A stretch of 64,000 nucleotides of DNA from Mesostigma viride (taxonomy: Eukaryota > Streptophyta > Mesostigmatophyceae > Mesostigmatales > Mesostigmataceae): NCBI GenBank assembly GCA_009746045.1, contig RPFO01000532.1, positions 15,001 through 79,000 on the forward strand, given 5' to 3'. Each line of letters starts with the position of its first letter. Positions within the stretch are counted from its first letter, which is position 1. The notes under the pieces were generated by a model. The model saw only the letters and a list, made by a program, of their open reading frames with translations, was not told where the DNA came from and did no database searches. Both the position numbers and the translations under genes were made by a program. Positions 16,253 to 59,398 of this stretch are shown here, one piece after another.

Positions 16253-16544
16253 AGCTGCAAAAAGGCCTCCCTACGTTCACCACACCACTCTAAGTACGGT
16301 GTGAAAATGGAAAACAAAGCACATGTCTCAAGGCGCCGCGCCCCCCTCAATCAAGGGCGGGCACGGTTGCCAGTAGGCACTAGTACCGGCGCACCGCCGG
16401 TCCCTTTCTCTCTCTAGTCCTAAGTAACAACAAGCACCTAACATGGTGTAGGTGACGTACGGTAGAGCTACGCTACATGCGGCAGATCGGCCCCCTTTGA
16501 GCCCGCCGCAACATAACTATAAAATGAGCAGATAGCTCAGAAAA
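16253..16544 (-). repeat. Non-autonomous element, repeat A1 (5' end)
   Basis: The 5' terminal repeat on the element strand begins TTTTCTGAGCTATCTGCTCA with an inverted core TGAGC-TATCT-GCTCA. It reads into the internal region after ...GCAGCTTCGC. The right-hand satellite restarts at once with TCTCTAAATACTG. Confidence 0.9.
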
Positions 16545-25500: not shown

Positions 25501-27296
25501 GTAGTATGGGATCATCTCTAAATACTGTAGTATGGGTTCATCCATAAGTATGGGATCATCTCTAAATACTGTAGTATGGGTCCATCCATAAGTATGGGAT
25601 CATCTCTAAATACTGTAGTATGGGATCATCTCTAAATACTGTAGTATGGGATCATCTCTAAATACTGTAGTATGGGATCATCTCTAAATACTGTAGTATG
25701 GGTCCATCCATAAGTATGGGTTCATCTCTAAATACTGTAGTATGGGTTCATCTCTAAATACTGTAGTATGGGTCCATCCATAAGTATTGGATTATCTCTA
25801 AATACTGTAGTATGGGTTCATCTCTAAATACTGTAGTATGGGTCCATCCATCAGTATTGGATTATCTCTAAATAATGTAGTATGGGATCATCTCTATATA
25901 CTGTAGTATGGGATCATCTCTAAATACTGTGGTATGGGATCATCTCTAAATACTGTAGTATGGGTTCATCTCTAAATACTGTAGTATGGGTCCATCCATA
26001 AGTATGGGATCATCTCTAAATACTGTAGTATGGGATCATCTCTAAATACTGTAGTATGGGATCATCTCTAAATACTGTAGTATGGGATTATCTCTAAATA
26101 CTGTAGTATGGGTCCATCCATAAGTATTGGATTATCTCTAAATACTGTAGTATGGGTTCATCTCTAAATACTGTAGTACGGGTCCATCCATAAGTATTGG
26201 ATTATCTCCAAATCTTGTAGTATGGGTTCATCCATAAGTATTGGATTATCTCTAAATACTGTAGTATGGGTTCATCTCTAAATACTGTAGTATGGGTTCA
26301 TCCATAAGTATTGGATTATCTCTAAATACTGTAGTATGGGTTCATCCATAAGTATTGGATCATCTCTAAATACTGTAGTATGGGATTATCTCTAAATACT
26401 GTAGTATGGGTTCATCTCTAAATACTGTAGTATGGGTCCATCCATAAGTATGGGATCATCTCTAAATACTGTAGTATGGGATCATCTCTAAATACTGTAG
26501 TATGGGATCATCTCTAAATACTGTAGTATGGGATTATCTCTAAATACTGTAGTATGGGTCCATCCATAAGTATTGGATTATCTCTAAATACTGTAGTATG
26601 GGTTCATCTCTAAATACTGTAGTACGGGTCCATCCATAAGTATTGGATTATATCTAAATACTGTAGTATGGGTTCATCCATAAGTATTGGATCATCTCTA
26701 AATACTGTAGTATGGGATCATCTCTAAATACTGTAGTATGGGATCATCTCTAAATACTGTAGTATGGGTCCATCCATAAGTATTGGATTATCTCTAAATA
26801 CTGTAGTATGGGATCATCTCTAAATACTGTAGTATGGGATCATCTCTAAATACTGTAGTATGGGTTCATCCATAAGTATTGGATTATCTCTAAATACTGT
26901 AGTATGGGATCATCTCTAAATACTGTAGTATGGGATCATCTCTAAATACTGTGGTATGGGTTCATCTCTAAATACTGTAGTATGGGTTCATCCATAAGTA
27001 TTGGATTATCTCTAAATACTGTAGTATGGGTTCATCCATAAGTATTGGATCATCTCTAAATACTGTAGTATGGGATCATCTCTAAATACTGTAGTATGGG
27101 ATCATCTCTAAATACTGTAGTATGGGATCATCTCTAAATACTGTAGTATGGGATCATCTCTAAATACTGTAGTATGGGATCATCCATAAGTATTGGATTA
27201 TCTCTAAATACTGTAGTATGGGTTTATCCATAAGTATTGGATTATCTCTAAATAATGTAGTATGGGATCATCCATAAGTATTGGATTATCTCTAAA
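16545..27296. repeat. L/S satellite, block 2
   Basis: About 10.75 kb of the same L (26 bp) and S (18 bp) monomers. Rare variants show larger duplicated blocks. TCTCTATATA occurs at 24509 and 25891, and the variant CCATCCATC occurs at 24461 and 25843; both pairs are 1382 bp apart, so about 23.6-25.0 kb is repeated in tandem at about 25.0-26.4 kb. Part of that block also resembles 12.4-13.5 kb in block 1. No genes. The block ends at CTCTAAA|TTTGG, where autonomous copy 1 is inserted. Confidence 0.95.
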
Positions 27297-27507
27297 TTTG
27301 GTGAGCTATGCTCATTTTATCTATGACTAACCTGCTGAGCGGAGAATGCAACGCCGTATAGCACCAAAAGAAAAAAAATAATTTTAGAAAAAATATTTTT
27401 TGTGCTGGCACCCGTACCCCAGCCACCCAGGTAGGGGTTGGCTGGAGAGGTGGTTGCTATAAAGGGTGGGCTTCCATTCTAGGGAAGCAGGTTGTTTTCT
27501 TTTGCCT
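27297..27507 (+). repeat. Copy 1, repeat A1
   Basis: The 5' terminal repeat begins TTTGGTGAGCTATGCTCATT, with an inverted core TGAGC-TAT-GCTCA, and ends ..TTTTGCCT. It is identical to A2 except for two extra A in the poly-A run (AAAAAAAATAATTTT). It contains a CCAGCCA/TGGCTGG stem and a TATA box. Confidence 0.95.
27458..27464 (+). promoter_or_regulatory. Putative TATA box in A1
   Basis: TATAAAG followed by GGTGGG lies about 110 bp ahead of the gag ATG. It is conserved in every A repeat (33919, 49308, 54540 and in the A2 copies). Transcription would start near 27490, inside A1. This is inferred from position and sequence only. Confidence 0.5.
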
Positions 27508-27575: not shown

Positions 27576-28598
27576 ATGTCCACAGTGACAGCCCCAGACC
27601 GGAATTTCCTAGCGAAACTCAAGCAAGCAGCCAAGGAGGGATGCACCCCAAAGGAGGCCGCCACTGCGGTTCAGAAGATCCTAGGGGAGGGGAACTGGCT
27701 AGAGCGGATCCAGAAGCTCACTCCGGGGCGTGCCAAGAACGTCATGGACGTCCTGGAGGAACGGGGGTTTGTCAGCGACTGGGATGGGGAGGAGGCCCTG
27801 GCCGATGTGCTAGCAGCGCAACTGGGGGAGGCTATTGCAGAGCCGGACCCACCAGTGTCAGCAGGTGCGGTGGGAACGGGGGGTGTTCCCCCTTCGGCAG
27901 GTGGAAGCGGAGGGGCGGGGCATGGTGGAGCGGGCGCTGGGGAGGACGATGGCGCTCCTGGGGCGATCGACCAGGCTGTGGCGGACCTGGACCGAAACCT
28001 AGGTCGGCTGCTGGGGACCGAGACGGGCTATGCAACGCCAGCTGGAGGGCTTCCATCCCGGCCGGGCAACGCCCGCACTGGCGGAGATATTGGCGACCTA
28101 ATATCGGCTATGTCGAAGCTGCTGGACCAGGCAAAGACTCCAGCAGCTGCAAGCCCAGCCGCAGCGACGACTGCTGGCAGGCTGGCGCGCACGAAGGGGG
28201 TGGCGCTGAGTGGGCATGCAGTGCCGGTGCTGGTGAGCAACATGCTGGAGGCGGTGCTGCCGGGAATGCTGGACTACGCGGAGAGCGTGGGGGGGAAGTC
28301 CATCCGTGCATCGTTAATGCTGACGATGCACGGCAGCTCAGCCAGCGGGGAGAGGCGGATGCTGCTCCTGCAGATGGCAGGAATTCTGGACACGATGGTG
28401 ACAGAATTTGGCTACTGGGCCACGCCACGCTCCGAAGTAATTCTGGAGCTGGCAGCAGCCGAGTACCTGGCAAAGCTGATCACGGCATGCCAGCTGGTGG
28501 ATGTGGGGTCGACGGGTGGAAGGGGACGCCGTCGGCAATGCTGCCATTCCAGGAGGGTGGAGCAATGCTGGCGTCTCCGGCGGTGCGGGCGGCGATGA
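27576..28598 (+). pseudogene. gag-like ORF1, copy 1 (C-terminus frameshifted)
   Basis: The first ORF of the element, in the position of gag. The first 312 codons match the 367-codon version in copies 3 and 4. A single T is missing (GGGTGG for GGGTTGG, about 28515-28519), so the last 28 residues become an Arg/Cys-rich tail (GRGRRRQCCHSRR) and the natural Lys/Gly/Asn tail (KKGQGG..NNNK) is lost. No zinc knuckle or known capsid motif is recognised. The N-terminal 70 residues are helical and charged (KLKQAAKEG, RAKNVMDVLEERG), followed by a Gly/Ala/Pro-rich hinge and a second helical region. The function is assumed from position. Copy 2 carries the same frameshift, so both copies descend from one damaged source. 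Confidence 0.75.
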
Positions 28599-28874: not shown

Positions 28875-31805
28875 GTGCCCGGGCCTCTGCAGCAGGCGGC
28901 CCTAGATGGGATCGATGATGCTTGCAGGTCCTTTGTCCGCCGGAACGGTGGTTCCGTAGCGGCAATGGCAGGATCTGTAGTGGATGGGGGTGAATATGCT
29001 GAAGGAGCCCCTTACGAACCGTTAGTGGCCGCACGCTTGGCTTTGCCTGGTCCGGGGGAAGGTGGCCAAGTGGATGTGCTGAACTTACTACCCCCCTCTT
29101 GGGGAGCAATTTTGAATGATGAGAGTAGGATGGTACGGACGCTGAGCCCAGCAGAGCGGATCTTGCAGAAGTCGATGCGGATCTCGCGGGGGTGTAGCAT
29201 GGAGGAGTTCGCGCGGGTTTGCACGGTGTGTGTGGAGAGGGGGATTTTGGGTGGATTTTTTGAGGAGGAGCCGCCTATGGTGAACGGTACTTTTGGGGTC
29301 GGAAAGCCCGACGGCCGTATACGGCTGATTGTGGACAACCGGCGTGGCAACATGCCACTACCTGATCCTATGCCCGCTTTTTTACCACACCTTGGCGTGA
29401 TTTGCGATTTGCCCACGCGCGCTGGGGAGGATGTTTTTGGGGGCGTATCAGATTTGGATTCGTACTACAACAGACTCCGCCTGCCAGTTTGGATGCGGCG
29501 GTACTGTGCGTGGATGCCGGTGTGGTCGGATCTGGTGGGCCTGAGTGGGGCTCGTCGGAAGGTGTGGCCGTGGATGTTGTGCTGGCCAATGGGCAACAAG
29601 CTGGCCGTCGCGGTGGCCCAGTGTGTGCATCAGTCTGTGTTGTACCGCTGTGGCCCCAAGCCGCCGTTGGAGGCTAGTCGTGGGCTGAGCATCAACATGT
29701 CCGCGCTGATCCTGGTGGCGGAGGCCAACGAGGCGGGGGAGACCGTCCGGCTGAGGCTGGAGGAGGACCCTGCTGCGCCCTTGGCGCCCTCGCCGTGCTT
29801 CGAATCTCGGCAGGATCTGGAAGGTATGCATGCTGTGACGATCGATGACCTCCATTTCACCCACTGTGCGTCGGTGGATGGGGTGAATCAGCAGCTAGAT
29901 CGTGTTCAGGCTGCCTACGCCGCTGTTGGGCTGGTGCAGAAGTCTGACAAGGTGGTACGGGCGACAGCAGAGCAGACTGGTGTGCAGGCGGTGGGGGTCA
30001 TTCACCAAAGGGATGGTGACGTGGTGCCTGTTCCTGAGCGTGTGGTGGCAGTTATCGCCGCTACTCATAGAATCTTAGATCGCGGGTTTACATACTACCG
30101 CGAACTTAGTTCTGTGCTTGGGAAGTGGGTGTGGATGCATCTGCTGTGCCGCCCCATGCTTTCGGTGTGGTCTGAGACGTACCGGCTGCTAGCAGCCATG
30201 AATGCCTCCCTGCCTGGGCGCCGCTGGCGCCTCCCTGCGGGGGCCCGCCAGGAGCTTCAGGCGGCGATCGACCTGGCCCCCTTTTTGAGGGCGGCCAGGG
30301 CCCGGCCCCTTTCTGACCGGGTCGTCGCAAGTGATGCGAGCGGCTCCGGCGGTGGGGTGGTCTACAGGGACCTGCCTGGGGCCGATTGTGCCCGGCTGGC
30401 GACCCGGCGCGAAGCGCGGGGGTGGCGGACGACAGCTTTAACGTCTGGGGAGGACTGGGACCTGGAGCGCATGGAGGAGGGGGACTACAGCCTGCTGGAT
30501 AGTGGCCACTGGCGTACGGCACTGTCCTACCGGTGGCGGGGGCAGCCTAACCACATCAACGTCAAGGAGGCGATTGCTGCGACACAGGGGGTCGAGTGGT
30601 CGTGCCGGACCAAGGCGTGTCGGGGTAAGCGAGTCGTCCGGCTCGTAGACTCCAGTGCTGTGGTGGGGGCGTTTGTCAGAGGGCGGTCGTCTTCCTACCG
30701 TCTCAACCAGCTGGTTCGACGCTACTGCGCTCTGTCACTGGCTGGCGACATGCAGAGCCACTGGGTCTGGGTGGCTACCGACCACAACCCAGCTGACAAG
30801 GCCAGTCGGCGTGGCGCTTGGGTTCCTGACTTGACCCGGTGTGGTGACGTGCATCCCAACCCTGGGCCTGAGGGGGCGCGACGCCCTCGGGACTTGGCAC
30901 TTTTGGAGGGCACAGTCAACCCTGTGTCTACCTTGCCAGCGTACCGACGTGCGGCGGCTGTCTACGTGGCGTGGGCGCCACCTGGCCCTGTCGACCCAGC
31001 TGACGCCGAAGCCATTTTCTGTGAGTGGATTTCTGCTGTCTACCATGCCAGAGGCGGGCGGGGGCGTACCTTATGCCAGCATGCCAAGGCCTGTCTGCAC
31101 CTGTACTACCCCGACATTGTTCGGAATTGGGTACTGGCGGACCGCCTGCTAGCAGGTTGGCAGCGGCTTGTTCCGGCTGTCAGCCCTCCGCCTATGCCCT
31201 GGCGCCTTTGCTATTTCACTGCCCTGTTGCTAGTTTCACGTCGACAGGTGCATTTGAGTGCGTTGATTATTATTGCTTTCCAGCAGTATTTACGCATTAG
31301 CGAGGCGCTAGGGCTGCGGGTTCGGGATGTGGCTCATCCCGGCCACCCCCTTCTCGAGCCAGGGCCCATGGTCGGTGCCCTTGTGCTGCGCAACCCCAAA
31401 ACTGCGCAGGGGGCGGCCCAGCACGTCCTCGTCCGGGATCCACTTTCTTTGTGGCTCCTGCGACGTCTGACGGCTGGCCAGCCCCCGGATGCACTCCTCT
31501 TTCGAGGCTTAACGTACAGCCAGGCTAGGCAGCAGTGGGAGGCTGTGCAGGCCCGCATGAGCATCCCAGGGATGTTTTCTTTTCACAGCCTCCGGCATGG
31601 GGGGGCGACGCACGACGCCATCGCTGGCGAGTCGCCGGAGGCCATCCAGCTGCGCGGCCGGTGGGCTTCGGCCCTCTCGGTCACGCGCTACATTGGCCTC
31701 CACCGCAGCCTCCTGGGGCGCGACATCCCACCCGCCCTCTGGGCTCAGGCCCTGGGTTTTGACCCAGCGGCTTTCCGGCGCCACTTCGGTGGCGTCGAGT
31801 TTTGA
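28875..31805 (+). CDS. ORF2: reverse transcriptase-RNase H-(2A-like)-tyrosine recombinase, copy 1
   Basis: A 976-codon open frame; the coordinate starts at a GTG (valine), not a proven start, and the first in-frame ATG is at 28965. RT: KPDGRIRLIVDNRRGN (144-159), motif A DLDSYYNRL (193-201), a motif B-like segment around PMGNKLAVAVAQ (238-249) and motif C TIDDLHF (322-328) with the Asp pair 324-325. RNase H: Asp487 (ASDASGSGGG), Glu565 (NVKEAIAA), Asp592 (VDSSAVVGA) and TDHNPADKASR (635-645). A 2A-like motif ends at Pro665. Tyrosine recombinase: Arg807 (YLRISEAL), possible Lys842, HSLRH (904-908), Trp930 (GRW) and the nucleophile Tyr939 (VTRYIGL). All catalytic residues expected of an active enzyme are present and there is no internal stop. 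The product would copy the element RNA into DNA and recombine a circle into the genome. Confidence 0.93.
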   Translation: MPGPLQQAALDGIDDACRSFVRRNGGSVAAMAGSVVDGGEYAEGAPYEPLVAARLALPGPGEGGQVDVLNLLPPSWGAILNDESRMVRTLSPAERILQKSMRISRGCSMEEFARVCTVCVERGILGGFFEEEPPMVNGTFGVGKPDGRIRLIVDNRRGNMPLPDPMPAFLPHLGVICDLPTRAGEDVFGGVSDLDSYYNRLRLPVWMRRYCAWMPVWSDLVGLSGARRKVWPWMLCWPMGNKLAVAVAQCVHQSVLYRCGPKPPLEASRGLSINMSALILVAEANEAGETVRLRLEEDPAAPLAPSPCFESRQDLEGMHAVTIDDLHFTHCASVDGVNQQLDRVQAAYAAVGLVQKSDKVVRATAEQTGVQAVGVIHQRDGDVVPVPERVVAVIAATHRILDRGFTYYRELSSVLGKWVWMHLLCRPMLSVWSETYRLLAAMNASLPGRRWRLPAGARQELQAAIDLAPFLRAARARPLSDRVVASDASGSGGGVVYRDLPGADCARLATRREARGWRTTALTSGEDWDLERMEEGDYSLLDSGHWRTALSYRWRGQPNHINVKEAIAATQGVEWSCRTKACRGKRVVRLVDSSAVVGAFVRGRSSSYRLNQLVRRYCALSLAGDMQSHWVWVATDHNPADKASRRGAWVPDLTRCGDVHPNPGPEGARRPRDLALLEGTVNPVSTLPAYRRAAAVYVAWAPPGPVDPADAEAIFCEWISAVYHARGGRGRTLCQHAKACLHLYYPDIVRNWVLADRLLAGWQRLVPAVSPPPMPWRLCYFTALLLVSRRQVHLSALIIIAFQQYLRISEALGLRVRDVAHPGHPLLEPGPMVGALVLRNPKTAQGAAQHVLVRDPLSLWLLRRLTAGQPPDALLFRGLTYSQARQQWEAVQARMSIPGMFSFHSLRHGGATHDAIAGESPEAIQLRGRWASALSVTRYIGLHRSLLGRDIPPALWAQALGFDPAAFRRHFGGVEF
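30828..30869 (+). other. 2A-like ribosome-skipping motif inside ORF2
   Basis: Codons 652-665 read DLTRCGDVHPNPGP. The 2A consensus is D(V/I)ExNPGP, and here Glu is replaced by His. Skipping would occur between Gly664 and Pro665, just after the last RNase H motif and before the recombinase. The motif is conserved in all four copies (37289-37330, 52679-52720, 57908-57949). Activity is not proven. Confidence 0.7.
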
Positions 31806-32000: not shown

Positions 32001-32196
32001 GGGTAGAGCAGGGGCACAGCTGCTGTGGGCTGGCCCTGCACATTCACATAGTGTGCTCACCCTAGCATACAGATGGCCGTGTTGCCATCTGGTAGACATG
32101 TCTGTGTTATTCCACCGTATAGAGCTAGCACACATATTGTAATAAATTTGATGTTTTGTGGTGATGCATGCAAAGCAAGGCAAGGCCAGAAATGGA
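32001..32196 (+). repeat. Copy 1, repeat B1
   Basis: 196 bp from GGGTAGAGCAGGGG to AAATGGA, identical to B2. It contains a stem at 32070-32091 (CAGATGGC/GCCATCTG), the near-palindrome CACAGC-T-GCTGTG and the polyadenylation motif. It abuts A2 directly (AAATGGA|TTTGG), the sequence expected if the element's ends were joined. Confidence 0.95.
32135..32146 (+). terminator. Green-algal polyadenylation signal in B1
   Basis: TATTGTAATAAA includes TGTAA, the usual polyadenylation signal of chlorophycean algae, overlapping AATAAA. The same motif is in B2 and, on the element strand, in the B repeats of the non-autonomous family. Confidence 0.65.
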
Positions 32197-32405
32197 TTTG
32201 GTGAGCTATGCTCATTTTATCTATGACTAACCTGCTGAGCGGAGAATGCAACGCCGTATAGCACCAAAAGAAAAAATAATTTTAGAAAAAATATTTTTTG
32301 TGCTGGCACCCGTACCCCAGCCACCCAGGTAGGGGTTGGCTGGAGAGGTGGTTGCTATAAAGGGTGGGCTTCCATTCTAGGGAAGCAGGTTGTTTTCTTT
32401 TGCCT
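32197..32405 (+). repeat. Copy 1, repeat A2
   Basis: 209-bp internal copy of A1, from TTTGGTGAGC to TTTTGCCT. After its end the sequence departs from the A1 leader into the C-rich spacer. Confidence 0.95.
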
Positions 32406-32429: not shown

Positions 32430-32625
32430 GGGTAGAGCAGGGGCACAGCTGCTGTGGGCTGGCCCTGCACATTCACATAGTGTGCTCACCCTAGCATACA
32501 GATGGCCGTGTTGCCATCTGGTAGACATGTCTGTGTTATTCCACCGTATAGAGCTAGCACACATATTGTAATAAATTTGATGTTTTGTGGTGATGCATGC
32601 AAAGCAAGGCAAGGCCAGAAATGGA
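32430..32625 (+). repeat. Copy 1, repeat B2 (3' end)
   Basis: 196-bp terminal repeat identical to B1, ending AAATGGA. The satellite resumes immediately with TACTGTAGTATGGG. Confidence 0.95.
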
Positions 32626-33757
32626 TACTGTAGTATGGGTTCATCCATAAGTATTGGATTATCTCTAAATACTGTAGTATGGGTTCATCCATTAGTATTG
32701 GATTATCTCTAAATACTGTAGTATGGGTTCATCCATAAGTATGGGTTCATCTCTAAATACTGTAGTATGGGATCATCCATAAGTATTGGATCATCTCTAA
32801 ATACTGTAGTATGGGATCATCTCTAAATACTGTAGTATGGGTCCATCCATAAGTATTGGATTATCTCTAAATACTGTAGTATGGGTTTATCCATAAGTAT
32901 TGGATTATCTCTAAATACTGTAGTATGGGATCATCCATAAGTATTGGATCATCTCTAAATACTGTAGTATGGGATCATCTCTAAATACTGTAGTATGGGA
33001 TCATCCATAAGTATTGGATTATCTCTAAATACTGTAGTATGGGTTCATCCATAAGTATTGGATTATCTCTAAATACTGTAGTATGGGTTCATCCATTAGT
33101 ATTGGATTATCTCTAAATACTGTAGTATGGGTTCATCCATAAGTATGGGTTCATCTCTAAATACTGTAGTATGGGATCATCCATAAGTATTGGATCATCT
33201 CTAAATACTGTAGTATGGGATCATCTCTAAATACTGTAGTATGGGTTCATCTCTAAATACTGTAGTATGGGATCATCTCTAAATAATGTAGTATGGGTTT
33301 ATCCATAAGTATTGGATTATCTCTAAATAATGTAGTATGGGATCATCCATAAGTATTGGATCATCTCTAAATACTGTAGTATGGGATCATCCATAAGTAT
33401 TGAATCATCTCTAAATACTGTAGTATGGGATCATCTCTAAATACTGTGGTATGGGATCATCTCTAAATACTGTAGTATGGGATCATCCATAAGTATTGGA
33501 TTATCTCTAAATACTGTAGTATGGGATCATCTCTAAATACTGTAGTATGGGATCATCCATAAGTATGGGATCATCTCTAAATACTGTAGTATGGGATCAT
33601 CTCTAAATACTGTAGTATGGGTCCATCCATAAGTATGGGTTCATCTCTAAATACTGTAGTATGGGATCATCTCTAAATACTGTAGTATGGGATCATCCAT
33701 AAGTATTGGATCATCTCTAAATACTGTAGTATGGGTTCATCTCTAAATACTGTAGTA
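32626..33757. repeat. L/S satellite, block 3
   Basis: 1132 bp of L and S monomers between autonomous copies 1 and 2, including one mutated S/L join (GTATTGAATCATC near 33400). Its first part continues the unit broken by copy 1, and its end (CTGTAGTA) is the left flank of copy 2. The text resembles the sequence near 13.9-14.2 kb and 16.6-17.0 kb, which suggests block duplication. Confidence 0.95.
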
Positions 33758-33968
33758 TTTGGTGAGCTATGCTCATTTTATCTATGACTAACCTGGTGAG
33801 CGGAGAATGCAACGCCGTATAGCACCAAAAGAAAAAATAATTTTAGAAAAAAAATATTTTTTGTGCTGGCACCCGTACCCCAGCCACCCAGGTAGGGGTT
33901 GGCTGGAGAGGTGGTTGCTATAAAGGGTGGGCTTCCATTCTAGGGAAGCAGGTTGTTTTCTTTTGCCT
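33758..33968 (+). repeat. Copy 2, repeat A1
   Basis: 211-bp 5' repeat as in copy 1, with one base change (ACCTGGTGAG for ACCTGCTGAG) and a longer A-run. The TATA box is at 33919-33925. There is no matching A2 in this copy. Confidence 0.93.
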
Positions 33969-34036: not shown

Positions 34037-35059
34037 ATGTCCACAGTGACAGCCCCAGACCGGAATTTCCTAGCGAAACTCAAGCAAGCAGCCAAGGAGG
34101 GATGCACCCCAAAGGAGGCCGCCACTGCGGTTCAGAAGATCCTAGGGGAGGGGAACTGGCTAGAGCGGATCCAGAAGCTCACTCCGGGGCGTGCCAAGAA
34201 CGTCATGGACGTCCTGGAGGAACGGGGGTTTGTCAGCGACTGGGATGGGGAGGAGGCCCTGGCCGATGTGCTAGCAGCGCAACTGGGGGAGGCTATTGCA
34301 GAGCCGGACCCACCAGTGTCAGCAGGTGCGGTGGGAACGGGGGGTGTTCCCCCTTCGGCAGGTGGAAGCGGAGGGGCGGGGCATGGTGGAGCGGGCGCTG
34401 GGGAGGACGATGGCGCTCCTGGGGCGATCGACCAGGCTGTGGCGGACCTGGACCGAAACCTAGGTCGGCTGCTGGGGACCGAGACGGGCTATGCAACGCC
34501 AGCTGGAGGGCTTCCATCCCGGCCGGGCAACGCCCGCACTGGCGGAGATATTGGCGACCTAATATCGGCTATGTCGAAGCTGCTGGACCAGGCAAAGACT
34601 CCAGCAGCTGCAAGCCCAGCCGCAGCGACGACTGCTGGCAGGCTGGCGCGCACGAAGGGGGTGGCGCTGAGTGGGCATGCAGTGCCGGTGCTGGTGAGCA
34701 ACATGCTGGAGGCGGTGCTGCCGGGAATGCTGGACTACGCGGAGAGCGTGGGGGGGAAGTCCATCCGTGCATCGTTAATGCTGACGATGCACGGCAGCTC
34801 AGCCAGCGGGGAGAGGCGGATGCTGCTCCTGCAGATGGCAGGAATTCTGGACACGATGGTGACAGAATTTGGCTACTGGGCCACGCCACGCTCCGAAGTA
34901 ATTCTGGAGCTGGCAGCAGCCGAGTACCTGGCAAAGCTGATCACGGCATGCCAGCTGGTGGATGTGGGGTCGACGGGTGGAAGGGGACGCCGTCGGCAAT
35001 GCTGCCATTCCAGGAGGGTGGAGCAATGCTGGCGTCTCCGGCGGTGCGGGCGGCGATGA
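34037..35059 (+). pseudogene. gag-like ORF1, copy 2 (same C-terminal frameshift as copy 1)
   Basis: Protein identical to that of copy 1 over all 340 codons, including the missing T that replaces the natural C-terminus with an Arg/Cys-rich tail. Since copies 3 and 4 keep the 367-codon form and copy 4 is the most diverged, the long form is probably ancestral and this deletion is a derived change shared by copies 1 and 2. Either copies with this tail can still be mobilised by Gag supplied in trans, or the two copies arose by duplication of the region. Confidence 0.75.
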
Positions 35060-35335: not shown

Positions 35336-38266
35336 GTGCCCGGGCCTCTGCAGCAGGCGGCCCTAGATGGGATCGATGATGCTTGCAGGTCCTTTGTCCG
35401 CCGGAACGGTGGTTCCGTAGCGGCAATGGCAGGATCTGTAGTGGATGGGGGTGAATATGCTGAAGGAGCCCCTTACGAACCGTTAGTGGCCGCACGCTTG
35501 GCTTTGCCTGGTCCGGGGGAAGGTGGCCAAGTGGATGTGCTGAACTTACTACCCCCCTCTTGGGGAGCAATTTTGAATGATGAGAGTAGGATGGTACGGA
35601 CGCTGAGCCCAGCAGAGCGGATCTTGCAGAAGTCGATGCGGATCTCGCGGGGGTGTAGCATGGAGGAGTTCGCGCGGGTTTGCACGGTGTGTGTGGAGAG
35701 GGGGATTTTGGGTGGATTTTTTGAGGAGGAGCCGCCTATGGTGAACGGTACTTTTGGGGTCGGAAAGCCCGACGGCCGTATACGGCTGATTGTGGACAAC
35801 CGGCGTGGCAACATGCCACTACCTGATCCTATGCCCGCTTTTTTACCACACCTTGGCGTGATTTGCGATTTGCCCACGCGCGCTGGGGAGGATGTTTTTG
35901 GGGGCGTATCAGATTTGGATTCGTACTACAACAGACTCCGCCTGCCAGTTTGGATGCGGCGGTACTGTGCGTGGATGCCGGTGTGGTCGGATCTGGTGGG
36001 CCTGAGTGGGGCTCGTCGGAAGGTGTGGCCGTGGATGTTGTGCTGGCCAATGGGCAACAAGCTGGCCGTCGCGGTGGCCCAGTGTGTGCATCAGTCTGTG
36101 TTGTACCGCTGTGGCCCCAAGCCGCCGTTGGAGGCTAGTCGTGGGCTGAGCATCAACATGTCCGCGCTGATCCTGGTGGCGGAGGCCAACGAGGCGGGGG
36201 AGACCGTCCGGCTGAGGCTGGAGGAGGACCCTGCTGCGCCCTTGGCGCCCTCGCCGTGCTTCGAATCTCGGCAGGATCTGGAAGGTATGCATGCTGTGAC
36301 GATCGATGACCTCCATTTCACCCACTGTGCGTCGGTGGATGGGGTGAATCAGCAGCTAGATCGTGTTCAGGCTGCCTACGCCGCTGTTGGGCTGGTGCAG
36401 AAGTCTGACAAGGTGGTACGGGCGACAGCAGAGCAGACTGGTGTGCAGGCGGTGGGGGTCATTCACCAAAGGGATGGTGACGTGGTGCCTGTTCCTGAGC
36501 GTGTGGTGGCAGTTATCGCCGCTACTCATAGAATCTTAGATCGCGGGTTTACATACTACCGCGAACTTAGTTCTGTGCTTGGGAAGTGGGTGTGGATGCA
36601 TCTGCTGTGCCGCCCCATGCTTTCGGTGTGGTCTGAGACGTACCGGCTGCTAGCAGCCATGAATGCCTCCCTGCCTGGGCGCCGCTGGCGCCTCCCTGCG
36701 GGGGCCCGCCAGGAGCTTCAGGCGGCGATCGACCTGGCCCCCTTTTTGAGGGCGGCCAGGGCCCGGCCCCTTTCTGACCGGGTCGTCGCAAGTGATGCGA
36801 GCGGCTCCGGCGGTGGGGTGGTCTACAGGGACCTGCCTGGGGCCGATTGTGCCCGGCTGGCGACCCGGCGCGAAGCGCGGGGGTGGCGGACGACAGCTTT
36901 AACGTCTGGGGAGGACTGGGACCTGGAGCGCATGGAGGAGGGGGACTACAGCCTGCTGGATAGTGGCCACTGGCGTACGGCACTGTCCTACCGGTGGCGG
37001 GGGCAGCCTAACCACATCAACGTCAAGGAGGCGATTGCTGCGACACAGGGGGTCGAGTGGTCGTGCCGGACCAAGGCGTGTCGGGGTAAGCGAGTCGTCC
37101 GGCTCGTAGACTCCAGTGCTGTGGTGGGGGCGTTTGTCAGAGGGCGGTCGTCTTCCTACCGTCTCAACCAGCTGGTTCGACGCTACTGCGCTCTGTCACT
37201 GGCTGGCGACATGCAGAGCCACTGGGTCTGGGTGGCTACCGACCACAACCCAGCTGACAAGGCCAGTCGGCGTGGCGCTTGGGTTCCTGACTTGACCCGG
37301 TGTGGTGACGTGCATCCCAACCCTGGGCCTGAGGGGGCGCGACGCCCTCGGGACTTGGCACTTTTGGAGGGCACAGTCAACCCTGTGTCTACCTTGCCAG
37401 CGTACCGACGTGCGGCGGCTGTCTACGTGGCGTGGGCGCCACCTGGCCCTGTCGACCCAGCTGACGCCGAAGCCATTTTCTGTGAGTGGATTTCTGCTGT
37501 CTACCATGCCAGAGGCGGGCGGGGGCGTACCTTATGCCAGCATGCCAAGGCCTGTCTGCACCTGTACTACCCCGACATTGTTCGGAATTGGGTACTGGCG
37601 GACCGCCTGCTAGCAGGTTGGCAGCGGCTTGTTCCGGCTGTCAGCCCTCCGCCTATGCCCTGGCGCCTTTGCTATTTCACTGCCCTGTTGCTAGTTTCAC
37701 GTCGACAGGTGCATTTGAGTGCGTTGATTATTATTGCTTTCCAGCAGTATTTACGCATTAGCGAGGCGCTAGGGCTGCGGGTTCGGGATGTGGCTCATCC
37801 CGGCCACCCCCTTCTCGAGCCAGGGCCCATGGTCGGTGCCCTTGTGCTGCGCAACCCCAAAACTGCGCAGGGGGCGGCCCAGCACGTCCTCGTCCGGGAT
37901 CCACTTTCTTTGTGGCTCCTGCGACGTCTGACGGCTGGCCAGCCCCCGGATGCACTCCTCTTTCGAGGCTTAACGTACAGCCAGGCTAGGCAGCAGTGGG
38001 AGGCTGTGCAGGCCCGCATGAGCATCCCAGGGATGTTTTCTTTTCACAGCCTCCGGCATGGGGGGGCGACGCACGACGCCATCGCTGGCGAGTCGCCGGA
38101 GGCCATCCAGCTGCGCGGCCGGTGGGCTTCGGCCCTCTCGGTCACGCGCTACATTGGCCTCCACCGCAGCCTCCTGGGGCGCGACATCCCACCCGCCCTC
38201 TGGGCTCAGGCCCTGGGTTTTGACCCAGCGGCTTTCCGGCGCCACTTCGGTGGCGTCGAGTTTTGA
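35336..38266 (+). CDS. ORF2: RT-RNase H-(2A-like)-tyrosine recombinase, copy 2
   Basis: 976 codons with a protein sequence identical to copy 1, so every RT, RNase H and recombinase catalytic residue is kept. The start coordinate is again a GTG, and the first in-frame ATG is codon 31 (35426). The 2A-like motif lies at 37289-37330 and the G12 run at 35294-35305. The gene is intact although the element has lost its B1-A2-B2 end, so it could still supply protein if transcribed, but the RNA would lack the 3' repeats needed for its own copying. Confidence 0.92.
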   Translation: MPGPLQQAALDGIDDACRSFVRRNGGSVAAMAGSVVDGGEYAEGAPYEPLVAARLALPGPGEGGQVDVLNLLPPSWGAILNDESRMVRTLSPAERILQKSMRISRGCSMEEFARVCTVCVERGILGGFFEEEPPMVNGTFGVGKPDGRIRLIVDNRRGNMPLPDPMPAFLPHLGVICDLPTRAGEDVFGGVSDLDSYYNRLRLPVWMRRYCAWMPVWSDLVGLSGARRKVWPWMLCWPMGNKLAVAVAQCVHQSVLYRCGPKPPLEASRGLSINMSALILVAEANEAGETVRLRLEEDPAAPLAPSPCFESRQDLEGMHAVTIDDLHFTHCASVDGVNQQLDRVQAAYAAVGLVQKSDKVVRATAEQTGVQAVGVIHQRDGDVVPVPERVVAVIAATHRILDRGFTYYRELSSVLGKWVWMHLLCRPMLSVWSETYRLLAAMNASLPGRRWRLPAGARQELQAAIDLAPFLRAARARPLSDRVVASDASGSGGGVVYRDLPGADCARLATRREARGWRTTALTSGEDWDLERMEEGDYSLLDSGHWRTALSYRWRGQPNHINVKEAIAATQGVEWSCRTKACRGKRVVRLVDSSAVVGAFVRGRSSSYRLNQLVRRYCALSLAGDMQSHWVWVATDHNPADKASRRGAWVPDLTRCGDVHPNPGPEGARRPRDLALLEGTVNPVSTLPAYRRAAAVYVAWAPPGPVDPADAEAIFCEWISAVYHARGGRGRTLCQHAKACLHLYYPDIVRNWVLADRLLAGWQRLVPAVSPPPMPWRLCYFTALLLVSRRQVHLSALIIIAFQQYLRISEALGLRVRDVAHPGHPLLEPGPMVGALVLRNPKTAQGAAQHVLVRDPLSLWLLRRLTAGQPPDALLFRGLTYSQARQQWEAVQARMSIPGMFSFHSLRHGGATHDAIAGESPEAIQLRGRWASALSVTRYIGLHRSLLGRDIPPALWAQALGFDPAAFRRHFGGVEF

Positions 38267-38349: not shown

Positions 38350-39594
38350 GAGCCTTGGCGCACCGCAGCCGAGTGGAGCTTTATTATGGTATATAATGCA
38401 TTTTCTTAAAACAAAGCCGGACCGCACTGCCGGGTTTAGCACGCACCCCCCTGTGGGGGGCGCGTGAAAACGGCAAAGGCAAAGCGGAGCCCGCCGCCTT
38501 TTGGCGGGCGTAGCGGAGCCTTGTTTTCACGCGCCCCCCGCGAGGGGAAAATTTTTTTCCAGGCTTGCCAGCGCTGTAGAATTTCTTAACCAGATTTTTT
38601 GTAAGTGCGCATGAATACCCACGGTTTTCCGCAGCTTCCCACCTCTCCCTTATCGCCAAGGGCAGAAGGGGCCTGCTCGCCGGAGCGCCGAGAGGGTACA
38701 GAGTGCCTGCCGACCTACCCATGCCGACAGGACCCCCCCCGACCCACGGCAGCCGCTGCCTTTGCTGAAAAACTGGGCAATTATGAATAGCGCGCTCCTC
38801 CCACCAAGATTCGCTCCAGCCCCGCATCCTCCCCGAAACTCCCGTCTGGCCACAGGCCGAAAGATCGGGTCCGCTGTCAGGCTCCTGGTAGTTATGGGCT
38901 ACCCTGGCACCCCACGCTAGCCATCTCCACGTTTAAGGCAGATTCGCCTCCACCTGTGATTCTTTCCACCGTAGCCGCTGGCCCTGGCCTGTATGGCTCC
39001 TTCCCTGACGTTGTCCGACTAAAAACGCAGCTTCCCCAGTGTCAGGAAGCTGCTTGCCGCACCCAGGGGTAGAGGGGAATCGTCAGTGGGCCCAGCGCCG
39101 GAAATCACACCCTTTTACTCAAATCGTAGAGCCCCCCACCCAACAACCATTACCGTGGCCTGTAACGGTAGGTGGCGATCATAAAGACTTTTATTCCAGG
39201 CCTCTCCACGCCCGGAGAGGCCGATAGCATCGTCTTACATTCAGCGCAGCCGCCATAGCGGCCAGCCGACCTTGCCAGCAAATGCTGGGATCAAGTTGCG
39301 AAGCTGCAAAAAGGCCTCCCTACGTTCACCACACCACTCTAAGTACGGTGTGAAAATGGAAAACAAAGCACATGTCTCAAGGCGCCGCGCCCCCCTCAAT
39401 CAAGGGCGGGCACGGTTGCCAGTAGGCACTAGTACCGGCGCACCGCCGGTCCCTTTTCTCTCTCTAGTCCTAAGTAACAACAAGCACCTAACATGGTGCA
39501 GGTGACGTACGGTAGAGCTACGCTACAGGCGGCAGATCGGCCCCCTTTGAGCCCGCCGCAACATAACTATAAAATGAGCAGATAGCTCAGAAAA
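38350..39594 (-). mobile_element. Non-autonomous element fragment (A1 and most of internal region)
   Basis: Equivalent to 15295-16544 of the complete copy with several indels (for example CCGCAGCC for GCCGCAGCC, AAAAACG for AAAAAACG). It lacks B1, A2 and B2. Its A1 at 39302-39594 ends CAGAAAA before satellite TCATCTC. The large hairpin and the short GGCCTCTCC stem (39199-39222) are both retained. It has no protein-coding content, and the indels break the open frames present in the complete copy. Confidence 0.9.
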
Positions 39595-50725: not shown

Positions 50726-53656
50726 GTGCCCGGGCCTCTGCAGCAGGCGGCCCTAGATGGGATCGATGATGCTTGCAGGTCCTTTGTCCGCCGGAACGGT
50801 GGTTCCGTAGCGGCAATGGCAGGATCTGTAGTGGATGGGGGTGAATATGCTGAAGGAGCCCCTTACGAACCGTTAGTGGCCGCACGCTTGGCTTTGCCTG
50901 GTCCGGGGGAAGGTGGCCAAGTGGATGTGCTGAACTTACTACCCCCCTCTTGGGGAGCAATTTTGAATGATGAGAGTAGGATGGTACGGACGCTGAGCCC
51001 AGCAGAGCGGATCTTGCAGAAGTCGATGCGGATCTCGCGGGGGTGTAGCATGGAGGAGTTCGCGCGGGTTTGCACGGTGTGTGTGGAGAGGGGGATTTTG
51101 GGTGGATTTTTTGAGGAGGAGCCGCCTATGGTGAACGGTACTTTTGGGGTCGGAAAGCCCGACGGCCGTATACGGCTGATTGTGGACAACCGGCGTGGCA
51201 ACATGCCACTACCTGATCCTATGCCCGCTTTTTTACCACACCTTGGCGTGATTTGCGATTTGCCCACGCGCGCTGGGGAGGATGTTTTTGGGGGCGTATC
51301 AGATTTGGATTCGTACTACAACAGACTCCGCCTGCCAGTTTGGATGCGGCGGTACTGTGCGTGGATGCCGGTGTGGTCGGATCTGGTGGGCCTGAGTGGG
51401 GCTCGTCGGAAGGTGTGGCCGTGGATGTTGTGCTGGCCAATGGGCAACAAGCTGGCCGTCGCGGTGGCCCAGTGTGTGCATCAGTCTGTGTTGTACCGCT
51501 GTGGCCCCAAGCCGCCGTTGGAGGCTAGTCGTGGGCTGAGCATCAACATGTCCGCGCTGATCCTGGTGGCGGAGGCCAACGAGGCGGGGGAGACCGTCCG
51601 GCTGAGGCTGGAGGAGGACCCTGCTGCGCCCTTGGCGCCCTCGCCGTGCTTCGAATCTCGGCAGGATCTGGAAGGTATGCATGCTGTGACGATCGATGAC
51701 CTCCATTTCACCCACTGTGCGTCGGTGGATGGGGTGAATCAGCAGCTAGATCGTGTTCAGGCTGCCTACGCCGCTGTTGGGCTGGTGCAGAAGTCTGACA
51801 AGGTGGTACGGGCGACAGCAGAGCAGACTGGTGTGCAGGCGGTGGGGGTCATTCACCAAAGGGATGGTGACGTGGTGCCTGTTCCTGAGCGTGTGGTGGC
51901 AGTTATCGCCGCTACTCATAGAATCTTAGATCGCGGGTTTACATACTACCGCGAACTTAGTTCTGTGCTTGGGAAGTGGGTGTGGATGCATCTGCTGTGC
52001 CGCCCCATGCTTTCGGTGTGGTCTGAGACGTACCGGCTGCTAGCAGCCATGAATGCCTCCCTGCCTGGGCGCCGCTGGCGCCTCCCTGCGGGGGCCCGCC
52101 AGGAGCTTCAGGCGGCGATCGACCTGGCCCCCTTTTTGAGGGCGGCCAGGGCCCGGCCCCTTTCTGACCGGGTCGTCGCAAGTGATGCGAGCGGCTCCGG
52201 CGGTGGGGTGGTCTACAGGGACCTGCCTGGGGCCGATTGTGCCCGGCTGGCGACCCGGCGCGAAGCGCGGGGGTGGCGGACGACAGCTTTAACGTCTGGG
52301 GAGGACTGGGACCTGGAGCGCATGGAGGAGGGGGACTACAGCCTGCTGGATAGTGGCCACTGGCGTACGGCACTGTCCTACCGGTGGCGGGGGCAGCCTA
52401 ACCACATCAACGTCAAGGAGGCGATTGCTGCGACACAGGGGGTCGAGTGGTCGTGCCGGACCAAGGCGTGTCGGGGTAAGCGAGTCGTCCGGCTCGTAGA
52501 CTCCAGTGCTGTGGTGGGGGCGTTTGTCAGAGGGCGGTCGTCTTCCTACCGTCTCAACCAGCTGGTTCGACGCTACTGCGCTCTGTCACTGGCTGGCGAC
52601 ATGCAGAGCCACTGGGTCTGGGTGGCTACCGACCACAACCCAGCTGACAAGGCCAGTCGGCGTGGCGCTTGGGTTCCTGACTTGACCCGGTGTGGTGACG
52701 TGCATCCCAACCCTGGGCCTGAGGGGGCGCGACGCCCTCGGGACTTGGCACTTTTGGAGGGCACAGTCAACCCTGTGTCTACCTTGCCAGCGTACCGACG
52801 TGCGGCGGCTGTCTACGTGGCGTGGGCGCCACCTGGCCCTGTCGACCCAGCTGACGCCGAAGCCATTTTCTGTGAGTGGATTTCTGCTGTCTACCATGCC
52901 AGAGGCGGGCGGGGGCGTACCTTATGCCAGCATGCCAAGGCCTGTCTGCACCTGTACTACCCCGACATTGTTCGGAATTGGGTACTGGCGGACCGCCTGC
53001 TAGCAGGTTGGCAGCGGCTTGTTCCGGCTGTCAGCCCTCCGCCTATGCCCTGGCGCCTTTGCTATTTCACTGCCCTGTTGCTAGTTTCACGTCGACAGGT
53101 GCATTTGAGTGCGTTGATTATTATTGCTTTCCAGCAGTATTTACGCATTAGCGAGGCGCTAGGGCTGCGGGTTCGGGATGTGGCTCATCCCGGCCACCCC
53201 CTTCTCGAGCCAGGGCCCATGGTCGGTGCCCTTGTGCTGCGCAACCCCAAAACTGCGCAGGGGGCGGCCCAGCACGTCCTCGTCCGGGATCCACTTTCTT
53301 TGTGGCTCCTGCGACGTCTGACGGCTGGCCAGCCCCCGGATGCACTCCTCTTTCGAGGCTTAACGTACAGCCAGGCTAGGCAGCAGTGGGAGGCTGTGCA
53401 GGCCCGCATGAGCATCCCAGGGATGTTTTCTTTTCACAGCCTCCGGCATGGGGGGGCGACGCACGACGCCATCGCTGGCGAGTCGCCGGAGGCCATCCAG
53501 CTGCGCGGCCGGTGGGCTTCGGCCCTCTCGGTCACGCGCTACATTGGCCTCCACCGCAGCCTCCTGGGGCGCGACATCCCACCCGCCCTCTGGGCTCAGG
53601 CCCTGGGTTTTGACCCAGCGGCTTTCCGGCGCCACTTCGGTGGCGTCGAGTTTTGA
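50726..53656 (+). CDS. ORF2: RT-RNase H-(2A-like)-tyrosine recombinase, copy 3
   Basis: 976 codons, protein identical to copies 1 and 2 as far as I can see. RT Asp pair in TIDDLHF, RNase H Asp487/Glu565/Asp592 and recombinase Arg807, His904-Arg907 and Tyr939 are all present. The first in-frame ATG is at 50816. The 2A-like motif is at 52679-52720. With intact gag, B1 and A2 this copy has every coding part, but copy 4 sits in its B2. Only a transcript terminated in B1, or spliced past the nested copy, would be of normal size. Confidence 0.93.
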   Translation: MPGPLQQAALDGIDDACRSFVRRNGGSVAAMAGSVVDGGEYAEGAPYEPLVAARLALPGPGEGGQVDVLNLLPPSWGAILNDESRMVRTLSPAERILQKSMRISRGCSMEEFARVCTVCVERGILGGFFEEEPPMVNGTFGVGKPDGRIRLIVDNRRGNMPLPDPMPAFLPHLGVICDLPTRAGEDVFGGVSDLDSYYNRLRLPVWMRRYCAWMPVWSDLVGLSGARRKVWPWMLCWPMGNKLAVAVAQCVHQSVLYRCGPKPPLEASRGLSINMSALILVAEANEAGETVRLRLEEDPAAPLAPSPCFESRQDLEGMHAVTIDDLHFTHCASVDGVNQQLDRVQAAYAAVGLVQKSDKVVRATAEQTGVQAVGVIHQRDGDVVPVPERVVAVIAATHRILDRGFTYYRELSSVLGKWVWMHLLCRPMLSVWSETYRLLAAMNASLPGRRWRLPAGARQELQAAIDLAPFLRAARARPLSDRVVASDASGSGGGVVYRDLPGADCARLATRREARGWRTTALTSGEDWDLERMEEGDYSLLDSGHWRTALSYRWRGQPNHINVKEAIAATQGVEWSCRTKACRGKRVVRLVDSSAVVGAFVRGRSSSYRLNQLVRRYCALSLAGDMQSHWVWVATDHNPADKASRRGAWVPDLTRCGDVHPNPGPEGARRPRDLALLEGTVNPVSTLPAYRRAAAVYVAWAPPGPVDPADAEAIFCEWISAVYHARGGRGRTLCQHAKACLHLYYPDIVRNWVLADRLLAGWQRLVPAVSPPPMPWRLCYFTALLLVSRRQVHLSALIIIAFQQYLRISEALGLRVRDVAHPGHPLLEPGPMVGALVLRNPKTAQGAAQHVLVRDPLSLWLLRRLTAGQPPDALLFRGLTYSQARQQWEAVQARMSIPGMFSFHSLRHGGATHDAIAGESPEAIQLRGRWASALSVTRYIGLHRSLLGRDIPPALWAQALGFDPAAFRRHFGGVEF

Positions 53657-55956: not shown

Positions 55957-58884
55957 GTGCCCGGGCCTCTGCAGCAGGCGGCCCTAGATGGGATCGATGA
56001 TGCTTGCAGGTCCTTTGTCCGCCGGAACGGTGGTTCCGTAGCGGCAATGGCAGGATCTGTAGTGGATGGGGGTGAATATGCTGAAGGAGCCCCTTACGAG
56101 CCGTTAGTGGCCGCACGCTTGGCCTTGCCTGGTCCGGGGGAAGGTGGCCAAGTGGATGTGCTGAACTTACTACCCCCTCTTGGGGAGCAATTTTGAATGA
56201 TGAGAGTAGGATGGTACGGACGCTGAGCCCAGCAGAGCGGATCTTGCAGAAGTCGATGCGGATCTCGCGGGGGTGTAGCATGGAGGAGTTCGCGCGGGTT
56301 TGCACGGTGTGTGTGGAGAGGGGGATTTTGGGTGGATTTTTTGAGGAGGAGCCGCCTATGGTGAACGGTACTTTTGGGGTCGGAAAGCCCGACGGCCGTA
56401 TACGGCTGATTGTGGACAACCGGCGTGGCAACATGCCACTACCAGATCCTATGCCCGCTTTTTTACCACACCTTGGCGTGATTTGCGATTTGCCCACGCG
56501 CGCTGGGGAGGATGTTTTTGGGGGCGTATCAGATTTGGATTCGTACTACAACAGACTCCGCCTGCCAGTTTGGATGCGGCGGTACTGTGCGTGGATGCCG
56601 GTGTGGTCGGATCTGGTGGGCCTGAGTGGGGCTCGACGGAAGGTGTGGCCGTGGATGTTGTGCTGGCCAATGGGCAACAAGCTGGCCGTCGCCGTGGCCC
56701 AGTGTGTGCATCAGTCTGTGTTGTACCGCTGTGGCCCCAAGCCGCCGTTGGAGGCTAGTCGTGGGCTGAGCATCAACATGTCCGCGCTGATCCTGGTGGC
56801 GGAGGCCAACGAGGCGGGGGAGACCGTCCGGCTGACGCTGGAGGAGGACCCTGCTGCGCCCTTGGCGCCCTCGCCGTGCTTCGAATCTCGGCAGGATCTG
56901 GAAGGTATGCATGCTGTGACGATCGATGACCTCCATTTCACCCACTGTGCGTCGGTGGATGGGGTGAATCAGCAGCTAGATCGTGTTCAGGCTGCCTACG
57001 CCGCTGTTGGGCTGGTGCAGAAGTCTGACAAGGTGGTACGGGCGACAGCAGAGCAGACTGGTGTGCAGGCGGTGGGTGTCATTCACCAAAGAGATGGTGA
57101 CGTGGTGCCTGTTCCTGAGCGTGTGGTGGCAGTTATCGCGCTACTCATAGAATCTTAGATCGCGGGTTTACATACTACCGCGAACTTAGTTCTGTGCTTG
57201 GGAAGTGGGTGTGGATGCATCTGCTGTGCCGCCCCATGCTTTCGGTGTGGTCTGAGACGTACCGGCTGCTAGCAGCAATGAATGCCTCCCTGCCTGGGCG
57301 CCGCTGGCGCCTCCCTGCGGGGGCCCGCCAGGAGCTTCAGGCGGCGATCGACCTGGCCCCCTTTTTGAGGGCGGCCAGGGCCCGGCCCCTTTCTGACCGG
57401 GTCGTCGCAAGTGATGCGAGCGGCTCCGGCGGTGGGGTGGTCTACAGGGACCTGCCTGGGGCCGATTGTGCCCGGCTGGCGACCCGGCGCGAAGCGCGGG
57501 GGTGGCGGACGACAGCTTTAACGTCTGGGGAGGACTGGGACCTGGAGCGCATGGAGGAGGGGGACTACAGCCTGCTGGATAGTGGCCACTGGCGTACGGC
57601 ACTGTCCTACCGGTGGCGGGGGCAGCCTAACCACATCAACGTCAAGGAGGCGATTGCTGCGACACAGGGGGTCGAGTGGTCGTGCCGGACCAAGGCGTGT
57701 CGAGGTAAGCGAGTCGTCCGGCTCGTAGACTCCAGTGCTGTGGTGGGGGCGTTTGTCAGAGGGCGGTCGTCTTCCTACCGCCTCAACCAGCTGGTTCGGC
57801 GCTACTGCGCTCTGTCACTGGCTGGCGACACGCAGAGCCACTGGGTCTGGGTGGCTACCGACCACAACCCAGCTGACAAGGCCAGTCGGCGTGGCGCTTG
57901 GATTCCTGACTTGACCCGGTGTGGTGACGTGCATCCCAACCCTGGGCCTGAGGGGGCGCGACGCCCTCGGGACTTGGCACTTTTGGAGGCACAGTCAACC
58001 CTGTGTCTACCTTGCCAGCGTACCGGCGTGCGGCGGCTGTCTACGTGGCGTGGGCGCCACCTGGCCCTGTCGACCCAGCTGACGCGGAAGCCATTTTCTG
58101 TGAGTGGATTTCTGCTGTCTACCATGCCAGGGGCGGGCGGGGGCGTACCTTATGCCAGCATGCCAAGGCCTGTCTCCACCTGTACTACCCCGACATTGTT
58201 CGGAATTGGGTACTGGCGGACCGCCTGCTAGCAGGTTGGCAGCGGCTTGTTCCGGCTGTCAGCCCTCCGCCTATGCCCTGGCGCCTTTGCTATTTCACTG
58301 CCCTGTTGCTAGTTTCACGTCGACAGGTGCACTTGAGTGCGTTGATTATTATTGCTTTCCAGCAGTATTTACGCATTAGCGAGGCGCTAGGGCTGCGGGT
58401 TCGGGATGTGGCTCATCCCGGCCACCCCCTTCTCGAGCCAGGGCCCATGGTCGGTGCCCTTGTGCTGCGCAACCCCAAAACTGCGCAGGGGGCGGCCCAG
58501 CACGTCCTCGTCCGGGATCCACTTTCTTTGTGGCTCCTGCGACGTCTGACGGCTGGCCAGCCCCCGGAGGCACTCCTCTTTCGGGGCTTAACGTACAGCC
58601 AGGCTAGGCAGCAGTGGGAGGCTGTGCAGGCCCGCATGGGCATCCCAGGGATGTTTTCTTTTCACAGCCTCCGGCATGGGGGGGCGACGCACGACGCCAT
58701 CGCTGGCGAGTCGCCGGAGGCCATCCAGCTGCGCGGCCGGTGGGCTTCGGCCCTCTCGGTCACGCGCTACATTGGCCTCCACCGCAGCCTCCTGGGGCGC
58801 GACATCCCACCCGCCCTCTGGGCTCAGGCCCTGGGTTTTGACCCAGCGGCTTTCCGGCGCCACTTCGGTGGCGTCGTGTTTTGA
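55957..58884 (+). pseudogene. ORF2, copy 4, broken by three single-base deletions
   Basis: Same gene as in copies 1-3 but with one C lost in the C-run at 56173-56177, one base lost at about 57139 (ATCGCGCTA for ATCGCCGCTA) and one G lost at about 57988 (GGAGGCAC for GGAGGGCAC). The frames read 55957-56196, 56193-57158, about 57160-58000 and 58003-58884. The second break lies after the RT motifs; the third separates the 2A-like motif (57908-57949) from the recombinase. Substitutions are few (for example S to G in ARMGIP, E to V near the end). Recombinase HSLRH and TRYIGL are still readable in the last frame. It cannot make a full-length protein. Confidence 0.9.
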
Positions 58885-59397: not shown

Positions 59398-59398
59398 A

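Follow-up and report, generated by a model that had tools for sequence, protein, structure and literature searches.

The peptide at the RNase H-recombinase junction of ORF2

The window analyzed here is a stretch of 64,000 nucleotides of the green alga Mesostigma viride (assembly GCA_009746045.1, contig RPFO01000532.1, positions 15,001 to 79,000 of the forward strand). It holds four copies (A to D) of a retrotransposon whose second open reading frame (ORF2) encodes a putative reverse transcriptase (RT), a putative RNase H and a tyrosine recombinase (YR). Between the last two lies a peptide of the StopGo/2A type, at which the ribosome is predicted to skip a peptide bond. The features of ORF2 and the position of the peptide in each copy are as follows:

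28875..31805, + strand: ORF2 of copy A, putative RT - RNase H - 2A - tyrosine recombinase, 976 aa (mechanical GTG start; first ATG at 28965)
30333..30797, + strand: stretch covering the four acidic residues of the putative RNase H, D487, E565, D592 and D641 (motif level; weak profile support)
30819..30869, + strand: 2A/StopGo peptide WVPDLTRCGDVHPNPGP of copy A, conserved across eight families
between Gly664 (30864-30866) and Pro665 (30867-30869), + strand: predicted skip site of copy A
31245..31694, + strand: tyrosine recombinase domain, residues 791-940 (PF00589)
37280..37330, + strand: same 2A/StopGo peptide in copy B (ORF2 identical to copy A)
52670..52720, + strand: same 2A/StopGo peptide in copy C (ORF2 identical to copy A)
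57899..57949, + strand: same peptide in copy D (three 1-nt deletions disrupt ORF2; Ile replaces Val at residue 650)

An earlier note on this DNA had placed a 2A-like motif at 30828-30869, and translation confirmed it: these positions encode DLTRCGDVHPNPGP within ORF2, with Pro665 as the last residue. This sequence consists of the hexapeptide DLTRCG and the octapeptide DVHPNPGP, and StopGo is described as the same combination of hexapeptide and octapeptide by Li et al. 2026 (PMC12846837; this and the other papers are cited from the portions of text available). The motif in ORF2 (28875-31805) is wider and reads WVPDLTRCGDVHPNPGP (W649-P665), in the surrounding sequence ...VATDHNPADKASRRGAWVPDLTRCGDVHPNPGPEGARRPRDLALLEGTVNP.... 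On sequence grounds, its upstream WV-DLT--G part, which the earlier note had missed, is the better evidence. Li et al. 2026 broadened the StopGo core to (D/G/C/N)(V/I)(E, rarely H)xNPGP, and the octapeptide falls within it. The canonical Glu at p14 is not present in the window family (F1), which has His instead. Because a natural StopGo variant with His at p14 was >95% active in its own context (PMC12846837), p14 Glu was not taken as defining StopGo. The Glu-to-His change had been thought to leave activity open; that doubt is eased by this variant and by the presence of His in families F1, F2, X and T (see below).

W649 lies eight residues past D641, the final aspartate assigned to the putative RNase H, and the peptide precedes the tyrosine recombinase. 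About ten residues separate the end of the peptide from an LLE stretch on the recombinase side that is common to the families, and the spacing from RNase H to recombinase in ORF2 is about 30 residues. The claimed placement, immediately behind the final RNase H motif and before the recombinase, holds at the motif level, with D487, E565, D592 and D641 invariant in 7/7 aligned rows. RT and RNase H are likewise supported at this level, by a conserved IDDL and the four acidic residues. Neither gave an above-threshold match in ORF2 with Pfam or PDB profiles, and PF00336, a viral DNA polymerase C-terminal model, was weakly matched by 5/7 rows (best E 0.015). The recombinase matched PF00589 (E 2.7e-6, 27.7 bits vs. 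a cut-off of 27.1) and, weakly, Cre (profile, E 0.059); R807, H904, R907 and Y939, assigned by eye, are the probable catalytic residues. An AlphaFold model of ORF2 (mean pLDDT 38) was set aside.

The 30-nt core of the motif has exactly four exact occurrences in the window (30840, 37301, 52691 and 57920) and was absent from 100 shuffles. The claim that all four copies carry it stands as to presence, but not as independent support, because copies A, B and C do not differ in ORF2 (2931 nt), and copy D, with 23 substitutions and three 1-nt deletions relative to copy A (~99% alike), carries the motif in a broken frame. Conservation among the window copies was rejected as evidence on account of the three identical ORF2 sequences. 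In copy D, 17/23 substitutions are synonymous vs. ~6 expected (p 6e-6), which indicates that its lineage was under protein-level selection before this copy broke. By composition, NPGP is expected 0.0086 times in the 976-aa ORF2 and [DGCN][VI]xxNPGP 1.8e-4 times. The expectation for Wxx[DN]LTxxGD[VI][EH]xNPGP, a pattern drawn up after the families had been seen, is 2e-12.

Related families in the Mesostigma genome

The assembly includes an rbcL of plastid type, whose translation looks green-algal. In the whole 440-Mb genome, 334 places were found with ≤3 mismatches from the 30-nt core, and none with the reversed pattern. Many window-family copies lie within a 995-aa open frame. Recent movement of the window family is evident from 113/150 scored copies (out of 1508 candidates) that show 100% identity along 177 aa.

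Relatives were sought with a codon-degenerate pattern from which the first Pro codon of the window family was excluded. This pattern gave 187 genome places vs. 1 for the reversed control. When 30 loci were cut out, 22 proved to be RNase H-recombinase frames, five belonged to another ORF type (two overlapping), one to a further type, and two were without the DLT context. Two families were found without an NPGP seed: T by searching for a stretch of RNase H, RSSSYRLN, whose pattern matched 538 places (vs. 4 when reversed), and X via a PF00589 search of the same genome (824 candidates). The peptide lies at the same junction in both. The X frame has the order RT - RNase H - 2A - recombinase, and its RT part aligns to the window ORF2. 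Eight representative families, with pairwise identities of 43-83%, carry the peptide at the RNase H/recombinase junction (F6 and T are represented by incomplete rows, and F5 shares 82.5% identity with F6):

F1 (window) and F2: WVPDLTRCGDVHPNPGP
F3: WVRDLTADGDVESNPGP
F4: WVRNLTADGDVESNPGP
F5: WRRDLTSDGDVEANPGP
F6: WRRNLTADGDVEANPGP
X: WVRDLTAEGIHPNPGP
T: WVRDLTREGVHPNPGP

The residues W, L, T, G, N, P, G and P are invariant in the eight families, and the codons vary; F1 and F2 encode the identical peptide with different codons. Gap columns make up 1/17 of the motif, 9/12 of the columns before it and 7/14 of those after it, i.e., the flanking linkers vary in length. The octapeptides of the other families are of the types DVE-, GIH- and GVHPNPGP, with p14 being His in F1, F2, X and T and Glu in F3-F6. 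The tree pairs with strong support were F1+F2, F3+F4, F5+F6 and X+T (midpoint rooting only), so that the families with His at p14 fall into two distinct clades. Among six families, nonsynonymous codon differences accounted for 60/168 in the motif, 939/1613 elsewhere and 0/35 in NPGP. No intact family without the site was found among the matches listed. The sequence of the peptide, its place and its conservation across families were thus read directly from the genome.

The earlier note had named related elements lacking NPGP at this position as one of two findings that would count against a 2A. The opposite was seen: eight divergent families carry NPGP there, T and X having been recovered without an NPGP seed. 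A chance NPGP in one recently amplified element, to which we attach almost no credence, would fit the window by itself, where the four copies are in effect one observation. This explanation is refuted by the eight divergent families and by the 187 codon-different places vs. 1 reversed.

Among twelve short stretches, the site is readable in frame into the recombinase in L069, L070, L076, L077 and L078. Beyond the 2A, L069 and L070, from the high-copy family T, have in-frame stops in common, which looks as if this family had spread with a damaged recombinase frame.

Further ORFs carry the same 2A class (KRDLTKDGDVESNPGP; WEKDLTADGDVEANPGP) in a non-recombinase context (L040, L050, L051, L066, L067 and L049). 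In these ORFs, the 2A comes after a common FIN[IL]RRxRxxWRALSRKN stretch, and they possibly represent another element or gene family using StopGo. Separately, two assembly contigs (C2011 and C1532) gave strong phage-integrase matches (E 7e-23 to 1e-44), which suggests that they are bacterial.

Likeness to viral StopGo and the predicted separation

Li et al. 2026 describe upstream motifs 1 and 4, both of which contain WV(R/K)DLTx[acidic]G; the Gly occupies p12 in motif 1 and p11 in motif 4. In nearly every case tested, hardly any activity remained once characteristic residues of an upstream motif had been altered (PMC12846837). The algal families show the same two registers as viral motifs 4 and 1. 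F3 has zero departures from the motif 4 signature, and X and T follow the motif 1 register, one residue shorter, with His at p14 as the sole departure. The upstream context is matched in full by F3, X and T, and the window family has Pro and Cys at two of its positions.

When the 30-aa window stretch was compared with the PDB, ORF1 of Omono River virus was the single match at E ≤10 (E 0.95, not significant alone). With a profile of the eight peptides, the same protein came first of 177635 PDB sequences, with two 2A sites (E 3.5e-13). The NPGP core helps this retrieval, and the match in the W-DLT context is, as far as sequence can tell, its informative part. Four weaker profile matches (E 1.2-2.4) comprised three GDVE-NPG stretches resembling engineered 2A tags and one seed protein. 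The CGDVEENPG tail among the PDB matches, with Cys before Gly, is presumably the widely used T2A. Among viral contigs, no relatives were found by single protein or alignment, and the exact back-translated pattern of DLTxDGDVExNPGP gave 0 stretches; both results carry little weight because the collection is mostly non-eukaryotic.

The peptide would be a StopGo/2A of the WV-DLT--G class. With ...WVPDLTRCGDVHPNPG in the ribosome exit tunnel, the Gly664-Pro665 bond would not be formed, and RT-RNase H would be released with an NPG end (634 aa if the start is the first ATG). The ribosome would then continue and produce a free tyrosine recombinase of 312 aa (P665-F976), and the protease-less retrotransposon would thereby obtain its integrating enzyme as a separate protein. 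The mechanism of StopGo and its activity with His at p14 are known from the literature (PMC12846837). The release of a free recombinase from RT-RNase H, as the earlier note proposed, is supported by the conservation of the peptide at this junction in eight families. We consider it likely that the peptide of the window family is an active StopGo/2A parting the two proteins, and very likely that this applies to the clade as a whole. The window peptide is probably active, and the element probably benefits from the separation. The 2A of foot-and-mouth disease virus is in use in Chlamydomonas, where residual fusion remains (PMC6952782), and green-algal ribosomes therefore respond to StopGo.

Several points weigh against an active StopGo in the window family. 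Three residues of its peptide depart from motif 4: Pro stands in place of Arg/Lys, Cys in place of the acidic residue and His in place of Glu. Rare variants may depend on a narrow range of natural contexts, chimeras frequently lack activity (PMC12846837), and the 2A-like sequence of Varroa destructor virus 1 (VDV-1), which is off consensus, was inactive in Luke et al. 2008 (PMC2885027). A conservation ranking by sliding windows over six families put the motif 7th of 208, the top windows being the RNase H core. The nonsynonymous deficit in the motif (p 3e-8) was calculated from related family pairs, so its independence is overstated. The hit lists were examined in part (100 of the 538 RSSSYRLN places and 150 of the 824 PF00589 candidates). 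The remaining short stretches also belong here: in L073, L074 and L075 the letters of the motif survive within frames that have decayed or broken (for L073 and L075, one frame still gives a readable motif), decay of L072 has left DGDVESKP, and the recombinase frame of L079 and L080 contains no site. In L071 (contig C447:45800-46500), a long CTG repeat interrupts the family copy just before the 2A site.

The main alternative differs in degree: StopGo would work in the sister families and be weakened in the window family, where much of the RT-RNase H-recombinase would stay fused and both forms would be made. The three departures of F1 and F2 from the viral signature agree with such partial skipping, which is known from the residual fusion left by a viral 2A in Chlamydomonas (PMC6952782), and separation of <100% could be useful according to Li et al. 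(PMC12846837). We nevertheless consider it unlikely, because F1 was recently active, with many identical copies, and F1 and F2 keep the peptide despite synonymous codon changes. Moreover, Cys before Gly also occurs in the CGDVEENPG tail, and activity with His at p14 reaches >95% in the variant cited above. Still less probable is a role as a conserved polyprotein segment that links domains or binds nucleic acids, without skipping and with a convergent resemblance to 2A. Its location at a domain junction fits such a segment, as does the fact that all evidence is sequence-based. However, a linker role predicts neither the invariant NPGP, nor the motif 4 and motif 1 registers, nor flanks of variable length.

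Known systems and the surrounding features

The active StopGo/2A reading has precedents in RNA viruses and in other retrotransposons. RNA-virus StopGo/2A (motifs 1 and 4; Omono River virus ORF1) shares with the algal peptides WV-DLT--G, NPGP, two registers one residue apart and a place between domains of one frame. In contrast to the viral cases, the peptides described here belong to a green-algal retrotransposon, have His at p14 in 4/8 families and, in the window family, an upstream Pro and Cys. A 2A inside a retrotransposon protein is known from elements without long terminal repeats (non-LTR, LINE-like), namely L1Tc of Trypanosoma cruzi and APE-type elements (cited in PMC4981915), whereas here it lies at the RT-RNase H/tyrosine recombinase boundary of an element with split direct repeats. 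The remaining features of copy A are as follows:

27296..27507, + strand: split direct repeat A1 (99% identical to A2)
27576..28598, + strand: ORF1 (gag position)
32001..32197, + strand: split direct repeat B1 (100% identical to B2)
32196..32405, + strand: split direct repeat A2
32430..32626, + strand: split direct repeat B2, the element end

The order A1 ... B1 A2 B2 is that of split-direct-repeat tyrosine-recombinase retrotransposons. PAT-like (including TOC and Kangaroo), Ngaro-like and VIPER-like elements share this order, a putative RT-RNase H and a tyrosine recombinase (PMC3266345, PMC4157794, PMC6681497); in contrast to these, as far as the available text describes them, RT-RNase H and recombinase lie here in one frame with a 2A between them. 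The recombinase of DIRS1 is in its own ORF (PMC3266345), and two single-ORF TATE copies were reported in Bodo saltans (PMC3266345, PMC4157794, PMC6681497). Presence of a methyltransferase domain marks the DIRS group including PAT, and its absence Ngaro and VIPER. Pfam found no methyltransferase in copy C ORF1 or copy A ORF2, although it may miss such a divergent domain, and gave no match at all in copy C ORF1.

YR retrotransposons are described as lacking the aspartic protease of retroviral pol (PMC3783388), and with RT-RNase H and recombinase in one frame, another way of parting them is therefore needed. The 2A offers a simple, testable answer. Li et al., in the text available, report no natural StopGo in plant viruses and describe it as rare in cellular genes (PMC12846837), which makes hundreds of 2A-bearing copies in the genome of a green alga unexpected. 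A joint picture, which we hold tentatively and at somewhat less than even confidence, is that StopGo is ancestral and clade-wide in these algal YR retrotransposons, making it a naturally occurring 2A of the green lineage, with both registers (Asp/Gly at p12) and His at p14 in two clades. It would be shared with toti-like double-stranded RNA viruses by capture in either direction, and would replace the protease and set the RT:recombinase ratio.

The 2A itself and 2A in non-LTR retrotransposons are known. Among the matches listed in the literature searched, none joined 2A with a tyrosine-recombinase retrotransposon, and Ngaro was unnamed among those on 2A and retroelements; the survey by Rao et al. 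2025 lies outside this coverage. Elements of this kind may be among the eukaryotic 2As that this survey reportedly covers, and Li et al. liken its class B to motifs 1/4 (PMC12846837). The algal families form a natural series (Glu/His at p14, Asp/Gly at p12, Arg/Pro, acidic/Cys) for structure-function work, and might be a source of 2A peptides adapted to use in algae, in which part of the product stays fused with a viral 2A (PMC6952782).

An Rfam scan of the window gave 0 matches. The C-terminal end of ORF1 differs between copies A and B (27576-28598 and 34037-35059; 340 aa) and copies C and D (49426-50529 and 54657-55760; 367 aa). Copy D starts inside the B2 repeat of copy C (54350-54410), and its 3' repeats look shortened ahead of the resumed satellite (59380-59520); the C/D arrangement looks tandem or recombined. 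The block with copies C and D is surrounded by a 463-bp inverted repeat, 100% complementary, at 39133-39595 and 63497-63959, 23.9 kb apart. The elements lie inserted within long AT-rich satellite arrays (10102-14198, 16544-27297, 32625-33758, 39594-49149 and 59492-63498) with steps of 18 and 26 bp, of which the higher periods of 44, 70 and 96 bp are composed.

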